This document shows positions 12,397 to 63,699 of a stretch of 64,000 nt of DNA, piece after piece (position 1 is the stretch's first letter; each line of letters begins with the position of its first letter). Made by a program: the position numbers and the translations under genes. The notes beneath the pieces were generated by a model. The model was not told where the DNA came from. It saw only the letters and a list, made by a program, of their open reading frames with translations, and made no database searches. Where the stretch lies: contig NZ_JALNTY010000003.1 in NCBI RefSeq assembly GCF_023161965.1, forward strand, positions 105,271 to 169,270. Direction: 5' to 3'. The DNA comes from Anaerosoma tenue (GTDB lineage: Bacteria; Actinomycetota; Coriobacteriia; Anaerosomatales; Anaerosomataceae).

Positions 12397-13737
12397 CTAC
12401 CAGCGGCTCGGACGATCACGGTGCCGCGCAGGGTGACACGCATCGCACGTGCCGTCCCAGGGCGCCGTGAACGAGTCCACATACGTCTCGTGACACTCCA
12501 CGCAGCCAACGGCGACGGTGGGCTTGAAGTGCTCGGTCTTGAGGTCCATGGAGTGGCAGTTGGGACAACCATTGCTCAAGGGCACTGACGCGTGAACGTC
12601 CACCGGGTAGTGCTGTGTCTCGACCGGCTGAAGCGCCCCGTGGCACGACGCGCACTCGATCGTGGCTGTGGACCAGTCGATCCGTCCGGCGGGCGCCCTG
12701 TGGCACAGTGCGCAGTCGGCAGAGCCGTCTGCAGCCACGTGCAGCGCGAGCGTGTCGCCCGTCTCGTGGCAATCCACGCAACCCGCGCTGTCGATGGCCG
12801 TATGGATCACGGACACATCGCCGTGGATCTCGTGACAGTCGTCGCAACCGGTAAGGCCGGCTGCGATCTCATCGGCATAGAGCGCGTTGGCGTGGCAACC
12901 CACACACCCGAACTCGCCCTCCTCGACGGTGCGATGCTCCTCATGGATGGTCATGAGGTCTCCCGAGGAATCATGGCACCCGTCGTCACTGCACCCGGAC
13001 ATCGGCGCCCAGGAACTGGTGTGCCGCTCGGCCCCGTAATGCTCCTCGAAGGTGAAGTGGCACGTAGCGCACTGCGGGATGAACTCGACCACGGCCACCT
13101 TGGCGAGATCGTGACAGGCCGGGTTGACGCACGTGGAGGGCTCGGTGACCGTACCGGTCCCGGTGGCCTGCACGTAGCTGACGCCCGGATAGCCGGAGAC
13201 CGCGTGGTCCCCGTGTGGCACGGCATCAGAGTGGCATGCCGAGCAGGCTGCTGCCGCGTGACAACTCTGGCATTCGGCGGTGCTGCCCACCTTGAACACC
13301 AGCGAGTTGACCCAACCCTCGCCGGAGTGCGCCGCATGGAGCGTCTGCGGAGTACTGCTGAGGGAAACGGACGTCTTGAAGGTGCCGTAGACCGGATCGA
13401 TGTACGTGGAAGTGAAGCGCTGCGTCAGATCCCGGATGATCGGCAGCATGCCACTATGGCAGTCGCTGCAGCGCGTGAACAGGAACGATGGGTTGTGCCA
13501 GTGCTGGCTCGTGTTGATCGCACCATGGCAGGTCGAGCACCTCGTGTAGTCCACGGCACCGACGCGGAAGTCCACGACGCGCACGCCGCTGACGGCGTCC
13601 ACGCCGTGACAGACGTAGCACTCTTCCGAGCCGCTCGAGTACGTGGTGTCACCGGTCTCCTCGGCAATGGCCACACCTGCAGCGAGTGCGACAGTGACCA
13701 GAGCGAGGACCAGCACGGGCATGATACGAGGACGCAT
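12397..13737 (-). CDS. Secreted multihaem c-type cytochrome, 14 CxxCH plus two CX4CH sites
   Basis: The precursor has 446 residues with an export signal (MRPRIMPVLVLALVTVALAA, cleavage near AIAEE). I count fourteen CxxCH haem sites (first CYVCH, last CDACH) and two CX4CH variants, CVNPACH and CSDDGCH, so up to 16 haems, about one per 27 residues. There is no C-terminal membrane anchor, so it should be free in the cell-wall space or an outer-surface electron carrier. The ATG at 13737 has AGAGGTGG upstream. It is a single-gene transcript with a promoter and a terminator-bearing leader. I cannot place it in a named cytochrome family; a role in respiratory or extracellular electron transfer is inferred from the haem count. 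Confidence 0.92.
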   Translation of the reverse strand: MRPRIMPVLVLALVTVALAAGVAIAEETGDTTYSSGSEECYVCHGVDAVSGVRVVDFRVGAVDYTRCSTCHGAINTSQHWHNPSFLFTRCSDCHSGMLPIIRDLTQRFTSTYIDPVYGTFKTSVSLSSTPQTLHAAHSGEGWVNSLVFKVGSTAECQSCHAAAACSACHSDAVPHGDHAVSGYPGVSYVQATGTGTVTEPSTCVNPACHDLAKVAVVEFIPQCATCHFTFEEHYGAERHTSSWAPMSGCSDDGCHDSSGDLMTIHEEHRTVEEGEFGCVGCHANALYADEIAAGLTGCDDCHEIHGDVSVIHTAIDSAGCVDCHETGDTLALHVAADGSADCALCHRAPAGRIDWSTATIECASCHGALQPVETQHYPVDVHASVPLSNGCPNCHSMDLKTEHFKPTVAVGCVECHETYVDSFTAPWDGTCDACHPARHRDRPSRW

Positions 13738-13831
13738 ACGGATCGCCACCTCTTCTTCGGCACCGACATGTCGAAAAAGCCCACATGGGCGGCCCGGCCG
13801 CATCCCCCGTCCGCCCCTAGGGCGGGAAATG

Positions 13832-13861
13832 AAAAAACCGGCCGAACACGATCAGCCGGTT
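13832..13861 (-). terminator. Intrinsic terminator inside the cytochrome leader
   Basis: The stem AACCGGC/GCCGGTT is followed by six T residues on the minus strand, about 95 bases before the cytochrome ATG and 90 bases after the predicted transcription start. Its position inside the 5' leader suggests conditional termination. A weaker GCCC/GGGC hairpin with five T residues follows at 13774-13790. Confidence 0.7.
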
Positions 13862-13960
13862 GCGCCACTCGCTCCCCGTCATCCAGGCGCCCAATCACAG
13901 ATGGCGGTTCATCGCTTCGGATCGGCCCGGCACTCCCCCATATCCACCGGGCGATTGTGA

Positions 13961-13989
13961 ATTATGAACGCTCTTGTACCGATTCGCAA
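13961..13989 (-). promoter_or_regulatory. Promoter of the cytochrome transcript
   Basis: TTGCGA (13984-13989) and CATAAT (13961-13966) are separated by exactly 17 bases. The predicted start near 13953 leaves a leader of about 215 bases. The leader carries a 21-codon ORF (13817-13882) that overlaps the terminator. Nothing recognisable lies in 13990-14157 except the ribosome site of the next plus-strand gene. Confidence 0.6.
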
Positions 13990-14157
13990 CCTTGTTGTGA
14001 CACGCAACACATTAATGCCCATTCACACTGATGAGCGGCAGCACGTGACGATCAGACGCCGCACTCAGCCGCTCGGCACATCTGGGGACATATGAAGTAA
14101 CCGTTGGTCCCTCGATCGAGTCCTTCCATACGTGCCATCCGCTGGACAGGAGGCTCC

Positions 14158-62655: not shown

Positions 62656-63699
62656 ATGCGAGAGATCCTGGACGTGTGCGTGAAGATGGACCGGTTCGCC
62701 GAGCGGCTCTACGCGGCACTTGCCGAGCAGTGCCCGGAGCCCGGGCTCGCCACTACCTTCTCACGCCTTGCCGCGGACGAAGCCCAGCACACCGGATGGT
62801 GGGAAGGGCTGCTCGAGGCATGGGAGCACGGGCTCCTCCCCGACCTCGTGAACGACACCACCGGACTCGCGGAGCGCCTGACCGACGTGCACGACGAACT
62901 CTCACGTATCGACCTCGGCTCGATCGGCGAGCTCGACGTGGAGAGGATGCTCGCACTCGCCGCGCGTGTGGAGTTCTTCATGATCGACCCGGTCTTCAGC
63001 GAACTCATCGAGTTGACCGAACCCGCACAGTCGGAGCATCGCCACGCGGCCTACCAGGCGCACATCCAGCGGCTCGTGAACGAGATCGCCGCGCGCTACC
63101 CCGACGACTCCCTTGCCGCGCTCCTGGCATCCTCGTTGTCGCGCTCCTGGAGGGACAACCGGCGGCTGTCCGTCTACGCCACCCACGACGCGCTGACGGG
63201 ACTCTACAACCGCAGAGCGCTCTACACGCACCTGCCACAGTGGACCGCATGGTCGGCCCGGTACGGGCACCCTCTCGCGGTGCTCCTCATCGACATCGAC
63301 CGCTTCAAGGACATCAACGACACGCACGGCCACGCCGTCGGCGACCGCGCGCTCGCGTCGATCGCCCAGGCCATGCGCCATGTCACACGGGCGTCCGACC
63401 TCGTCGTCCGATACGGCGGCGACGAGTTCGCCGTGATCGCCCCGGAGACCGGCGTCAGCGAATGCGTGGATCTTGCGAACCGTATCGTCGAGGCGATCCG
63501 GCAGGTGAGCGTCAGCGCCGATGATGGCTCTGCCATCCCGCTCACGGTGAGCATCGGCAGCGCGGTGGCGCACGACGTCGCCGGCAGCCCGCCGTACCGT
63601 GTAGAGAGCCTGCTCGCGGCGGCCGACCAGGCACTCTACAGCGCCAAGAGCGCCGGCCGCGACCGGGCGGCCGATCCGCTCACCGTCGAACGGGTCTGA
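62656..63699 (+). CDS. Diguanylate cyclase with N-terminal ferritin-like domain
   Basis: This 347-residue protein has residues 1-150 as a four-helix ferritin/rubrerythrin-like domain. Asp12-x6-Tyr19 and Glu42-x2-His45 (in ADEAQHTGWW) resemble the first diiron half-site, and Glu127-x2-His130 (QSEHRHAAY) the second. A linker (150-175) leads to a full GGDEF domain with GGDEF at 254-258 and an inhibitory RxxD at 245-248. It should make c-di-GMP in response to a redox or iron/oxygen signal; the sensor role is inference. The ATG at 62656 has AAGGG 8 bases upstream. It stands alone on the plus strand. Confidence 0.85.
   Translation: MREILDVCVKMDRFAERLYAALAEQCPEPGLATTFSRLAADEAQHTGWWEGLLEAWEHGLLPDLVNDTTGLAERLTDVHDELSRIDLGSIGELDVERMLALAARVEFFMIDPVFSELIELTEPAQSEHRHAAYQAHIQRLVNEIAARYPDDSLAALLASSLSRSWRDNRRLSVYATHDALTGLYNRRALYTHLPQWTAWSARYGHPLAVLLIDIDRFKDINDTHGHAVGDRALASIAQAMRHVTRASDLVVRYGGDEFAVIAPETGVSECVDLANRIVEAIRQVSVSADDGSAIPLTVSIGSAVAHDVAGSPPYRVESLLAAADQALYSAKSAGRDRAADPLTVERV

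Follow-up and report, generated by a model that had tools for sequence, protein, structure and literature searches.

The leader of the gene for a secreted 14-haem cytochrome in Anaerosoma tenue is very probably a c-di-GMP-II riboswitch, which would act as a transcriptional ON switch. It lies on the minus strand of the window, i.e. the whole 64-kb stretch of DNA that was analysed, and its features are collected in Table 1. A covariance-model scan against Rfam identified the c-di-GMP-II family (RF01786) in the leader with a score of 61.4 bits, for a gathering threshold of 53.5 and an E-value of 3.2e-11 over the whole window, and no other Rfam family passed its gathering threshold anywhere in the 64 kb. 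An initial annotation had taken the arrangement here for a riboswitch or an attenuator without being able to match it to GEMM (c-di-GMP) or to any other class. It turns out to be a riboswitch, and the match is to the second c-di-GMP class, c-di-GMP-II, instead of GEMM-I. The scan gave no match to c-di-GMP-I/GEMM (RF01051) in the leader or in the window, and c-di-GMP-I and the other Rfam classes were accordingly rejected for this leader.

Table 1. Features of the cytochrome leader and its gene, in window coordinates.
Feature	Position	Strand	Basis or remark
CRP/Rex-like palindrome TGTGTTGCGTGTCACA	13996..14011	-	9 of 10 positions of TGTGA-N6-TCACA
Sigma-70-type promoter TTGCGA-N17-CATAAT (TTGCGA 13989-13984, CATAAT 13966-13961)	13961..13989	-	sequence scan
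5' hairpin, stem GCCCGG/CCGGGC (13952-13947 / 13930-13925), loop with AUGGGGGAG	13925..13952	-	degenerate form of the G-rich hairpin
c-di-GMP-II riboswitch aptamer, 84 bases	13845..13928	-	RF01786, model 1-84 of 84
Pseudoknot 5' strand GGGCGCC	13886..13892	-	pairs with 13866-13858
Pseudoknot 3' strand GGCGC-AA-CC, two-A bulge 13861-13860	13858..13866	-	alignment
Intrinsic terminator, stem 13861-13836, U-run to 13832	13832..13861	-	scan; -16.7 kcal/mol
Terminator 5' arm AACCGGCUGA	13861-13852	-	aptamer 3' end
Terminator 3' arm UCGGCCGGUU	13845-13836	-	pairs with AACCGGCUGA
Shine-Dalgarno-like AGAGGTGG	13746..13753	-	sequence; identical in 7/9 leaders of alignment A2
Secreted multihaem cytochrome, 446 aa, 14 CXXCH, Cytochrome_C7 / MtrC-like domains	12397..13737	-	sequence

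The core of the window aptamer does not differ from that of canonical c-di-GMP-II. Its bulge reads GCAACC and not GAGACC, the bulge of the GAG variant (c-di-GMP-II-GAG, RF03169), whose model gives it 50.4 bits as against the 61.4 of RF01786, and in the alignment of canonical aptamers the whole window aptamer is identical to that of locus L016. All the tests applied to it show an ordinary member of the c-di-GMP-II class.

RF01786 matches were found in 25 of the 27 genomes of the window's family and, in a draw of 296 genomes from its class, in 51 (E <= 0.001), all 51 belonging to the same order as the window or to closer groups. Of the 109 matches that the order has, 106 were read, namely 52 of 55 in the family (G011:C28, G009:C7 and G005:C99 were left out) and 54 of 54 elsewhere; sorted by their bulge, 35 are canonical (GCAACC) and 71 are GAG (GAGACC). 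A cmscan of 20 loci agrees with this sorting, the GAG loci scoring as RF03169, with the exception of L023, which is canonical by its bulge yet passes the RF03169 threshold only. The initial annotation had made its reading depend on structural conservation among homologues, and the pairs of the aptamer do covary. In an alignment of 34 distinct canonical aptamers, 83.7% of the cells are paired against 73.7% in shuffles, both-sided changes occur in 20 of 29 pairs, and covariation scores 0.354, compared with 0.181 for shuffled and at most 0.115 for slid alignments; since the aligned sequences are related, these shuffle comparisons are not probabilities. The seven pseudoknot pairs are paired in 100% of the cells (34/34 sequences), one pseudoknot pair being A-U in 21 sequences and G-C in 13, and the TGGGC and GCAACC core residues are invariant throughout.

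It is the covariance-model match, together with this conservation in relatives, that sets the leader above chance, and not its promoter and terminator alone. Indeed, shuffles of the region led us to expect 1.2 promoters and 2.8 terminators in 10 kb where one and two were found, which is the chance level, and the folding energy of the leader is ordinary (z of -0.94 and -0.19 in two tests). The promoter, the strong terminator of 10 pairs and the GC stem proposed by the initial annotation are all in place, and its leader of about 215 bases agrees with the roughly 217 bases obtained if transcription starts near 13954, the cytochrome ATG being at 13737-13735. On the other hand, its second, weaker terminator, at about 13793-13777, did not come up in our scan and lacks the U-run in most of the nine leaders of alignment A2; we rejected this hairpin as a terminator.

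The terminator starts at 13861, which is aptamer position 68 and the first bulged adenine of the pseudoknot. As it begins exactly at the bulge, its 5' arm AACCGGCUGA is made of the bulge, pseudoknot and P1 sequence, and we take the two-A bulge, from the solved structures of the class, to be in contact with the ligand. Aptamer and terminator are mutually exclusive, which is the layout of a c-di-GMP ON switch, and the ON direction is well supported by their anatomy. In the mechanism that we propose, RNA polymerase would start near 13954 and make the 84-base aptamer. With c-di-GMP bound, the pseudoknot and helix P1 would hold AACCGGCUGA, the terminator hairpin would be blocked, and read-through would allow transcription of the 14-haem secreted cytochrome. 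Without ligand, AACCGGCUGA would pair with UCGGCCGGUU and transcription would end at the U-run. The gene would thus most likely be read only in the presence of c-di-GMP.

The leader has, ahead of the gene, an expression platform that shares sequence with the aptamer, as a c-di-GMP-II switch should. The window terminator (10 pairs, 6 T of 8) gives a p-value of 0.02 against shuffled downstream sequence, and the corresponding values are modest in most single leaders. With a stem of at least 6 pairs and at least 4 T of 8, a terminator on the same aptamer segment was found in 13 of 23 canonical leaders of the family and in 6 of the 11 others examined in the order, the conserved tail of L067 not having been located in this survey. 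The minimum-energy fold of the leader is the terminator and not the aptamer, whose energy, with the pseudoknot left out, comes to only -8.6 kcal/mol; such a fold would be expected of an unbound ON switch, without being a proof of it.

One could also assume that control is exerted mainly by translation or by Rho-dependent termination, the hairpin being incidental and the conserved region near the Shine-Dalgarno sequence being the controlling element. In the nine A2 leaders, GGRCCGCC and GGCGATCC (window 13807-13735) are near-invariant and could pair across the ribosome-binding site, and no clear shared-segment terminator is seen in L010, L011, L012, L018, L015, L020 and L027, so that the expression platform either differs there or escapes our view. 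However, invariant pairs are uninformative on structure, with no covariation by which to judge the pairing, and the window terminator is strong and uses the ligand-bulge segment of the aptamer. We consider this mode of control unlikely and retain a ligand-controlled terminator.

As to the ligand, the genome of A. tenue has 11 GGDEF matches, among which five have both GG[DE]EF and NDxxGHxxGD intact; a GGDEF domain with an intact YGGDEF is also encountered at the end of the window (63178-63666, i.e. G000:C3:168448-168936). A serine at one GGDEF position is the mark of the cGAMP-making Hypr enzymes, and none of the five intact domains has it at the position taken to correspond. As far as these motifs tell, the genome is shown to possess c-di-GMP-type cyclases, and since its intact GGDEF domains are devoid of the Hypr serine, c-di-GMP is the likely ligand of the window aptamer. 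The same fold could instead have another cyclic dinucleotide, such as cGAMP, as its natural ligand. Two aptamer variants do exist side by side in the order, and the cytochrome riboswitches of Geobacter (GEMM-Ib) respond to cGAMP according to PMC6456294; but the window core is the canonical c-di-GMP-II core and, with the serine missing, we regard another ligand as improbable. An ordinary attenuator, in which ribosomes would read the 21-codon ORF that the initial annotation saw overlapping the terminator, can hardly be entertained: the ORF exists (ATG at 13882, to 13817) and does overlap the terminator, but it sits within the covarying aptamer, its ATG is found in 3 of the 34 aligned aptamers (L016, L006 and L055), no ribosome-binding site precedes it and no conserved, translatable leader ORF emerged, so that it was rejected as an attenuator peptide.

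The cytochrome is secreted according to a signal peptide judged by eye, and presumably plays a role in extracellular electron transfer. A sequence search for homologues of solved structure gave 0 matches, and three loci turned up when the named genome collection was scanned with this protein. In the order, a multihaem cytochrome follows 27 of the 31 canonical aptamers that have a readable downstream ORF (the others being L057, L064, L067 and L077), the downstream gene being taken mechanically as the longest ORF, of 60 aa or more, with a start no further than 500 bases away. These 27 ORFs come from 16 genera and contain 8 to 34 CXXCH motifs. By contrast with them, none of the 69 readable ORFs after GAG aptamers has four or more CXXCH. 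All 27 cytochromes match that of the window by blastp, mostly at identities of 25-46% and in some cases along a part of the protein. To judge from these matches, they form a single old gene family that has stayed under the switch and has duplicated here and there (two copies in G006 and two in G078), and the association must therefore be counted as few events and not as 27 independent ones.

In a draw from the phylum, RF01786 matches were found in 118 of 396 genomes, four of the window's family included. Outside the class, 46 matches were read, with the aptamer tail found by motif search in six of them (L123-L128) and the downstream ORF allowed to start within 600 bases; 44 had an ORF and none of these was a multihaem cytochrome. 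For this reason, the link between canonical aptamer and cytochrome looks particular to the window's order. A literature search that covered few subscription papers returned no paper linking c-di-GMP-II, riboswitch and cytochrome, and the searches on c-di-GMP riboswitches in Coriobacteriia and on riboswitches in OPB41 gave none either. What is new and unusual here is the target gene; the aptamer class is already known.

The cytochrome leaders share further elements upstream of the aptamer. A promoter of the pattern TTGN3-N16..18-NATAAT occurs in 17 of the 27 cytochrome leaders, where 0.065 would be expected, and the same sigma-70-type pattern in 1 of 69 GAG leaders. Within 45 bases ahead of the aptamer, 20 of the 27 cytochrome leaders contain the segment [AT]GGGGC, for an expectation of 1.6, as do 3 of 69 GAG leaders and 0 of 4 canonical leaders without a cytochrome. 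A stem around this G-rich segment reaches a combined p of 3e-9 over 26 leaders, which are related to each other, with 9 of 26 at p <= 0.05 and a slight bias towards the real leaders, since the best motif position was chosen for them and fixed in the shuffles; the motif is absent from L008, L013, L016 and L017. The folding energy of the 5' hairpin region is not unusual (mean z of -0.73 over 35 canonical and -0.45 over 71 GAG leaders). A hairpin with an unpaired AGGGGC lies directly before the aptamers of L055, L056, L058, L061, L062, L065, L005, L009 and others, and is almost confined to cytochrome leaders. An Rfam search with the G-rich hairpin of one relative (L055) gave no match, and a leader peptide starting from this hairpin was rejected, the start codons, read by eye, being inconsistent.

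A CRP/Rex-like palindrome is common to the leaders of c-di-GMP-II, GAG and c-di-GMP-I genes. When 8 or more of the 10 positions of TGTGA-N6-TCACA are required, the family has the box in 17 of its 23 canonical leaders and in 17 of its 29 GAG leaders, for 5-7% in simulated or shuffled controls, and it is present in 5 of 12 canonical and 7 of 42 GAG leaders elsewhere in the order. There are only five perfect sites in the genome of A. tenue, one of which (C4:119096-119111) lies 100 bases upstream of a c-di-GMP-I aptamer. Two Rex-type and three CRP-type proteins above the cut-off could be the readers of the box. In L006, L015 and L020 the palindrome overlaps or follows the -10 element, which suggests that it is the site of a repressor. 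Another palindrome, TTAGAGTTCTCTAA, recurs upstream of the GAG aptamers L025, L026, L029, L037 and L039, all from one genus.

In the order, the GAG variant precedes surface proteins. One GAG aptamer of A. tenue (C4:115334-115421) is followed by an 866-aa adhesin with SpaA/SdrD_B domains and a C-terminal LPFTG, and a second one (C1:1001117-1001208) by a large ORF whose start resembles a signal peptide. The only RF01051 copy of the genome, the c-di-GMP-I aptamer C4:118905-118996, precedes a 210-aa secreted HExxH ORF (HEVGH), for which a Pfam search gave no match. The adhesin and HExxH units adjoin (L032:1335-4066 and L032:4215-4997, both on C4), the c-di-GMP-I aptamer being 0.8 kb past the end of the adhesin gene on the opposite strand. 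At another locus, a molybdenum cofactor riboswitch (L046:127-248; RF01055, 71.8 bits) and a GAG aptamer lie some 300 bases apart on opposite strands. Many c-di-GMP-II-like aptamers elsewhere in the phylum (L137, L140-L143, L147-L154, L161 and others) carry GTGAAACC or GTGAACCC as the bulge, unlike both the canonical and the GAG type, and the genes after them look like surface proteins.

A tentative hypothesis, which we hold at low confidence, would be that canonical aptamers serve cytochromes through sigma-70-type promoters and GAG aptamers serve surface proteins through other promoters, with different ligands or c-di-GMP thresholds, which would allow electron transfer to be switched independently of attachment; the AGGGGC hairpin could act as a further sensor or as the site of a protein. 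In the literature searched, 'c-di-GMP-II-GAG' was found in one paper, as a model name only. The canonical/GAG split, often seen within single genomes, provides a natural test of the GAG ligand. The two variants have the overall fold and the shared-segment terminator in common and differ in the bulge and in the genes that follow.

A parallel can be drawn with Clostridioides difficile, whose four class II c-di-GMP riboswitches are described as ON switches in PMC6366702; Cdi-2-4, which precedes pilA1, terminates without ligand. The window has the same aptamer class, and its ON logic, by prevention of a terminator, would match theirs. Their targets are pili and adhesins, whereas that of the window is a 14-haem cytochrome in an actinobacterial order. 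The same source reports an adhesin and the protease ZmpI as a pair under c-di-GMP riboswitches, to which the likeness of the LPFTG adhesin and HExxH protein on C4 is suggestive. Among the first isolates of Anaerosomatales is an obligate Fe(III) reducer, and 17-18 multihaem genes are reported for isolates of the order in PMC9686372, the main text of which does not contain the word 'riboswitch'. If our reading is true, a c-di-GMP RNA switch directly controls a multihaem cytochrome in an order with an Fe(III) reducer. The use of this switch class for proteins of electron transfer seems to be peculiar to this single, little-known order. The closest working parallel would be the cGAMP switch system of the Geobacter cytochromes (PMC6456294). 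There, in the leaders of pgcA, OmcAHG and OmcST, GEMM-Ib riboswitches, which are likewise of a dinucleotide class, work through a terminator in the ON direction, which we infer for the window, and precede multihaem cytochromes, which are extracellular in Geobacter. The Geobacter switches belong to the GEMM-I aptamer family and bind cGAMP, unlike the window leader with its c-di-GMP-II aptamer, and the two systems would thus represent a case of convergence.
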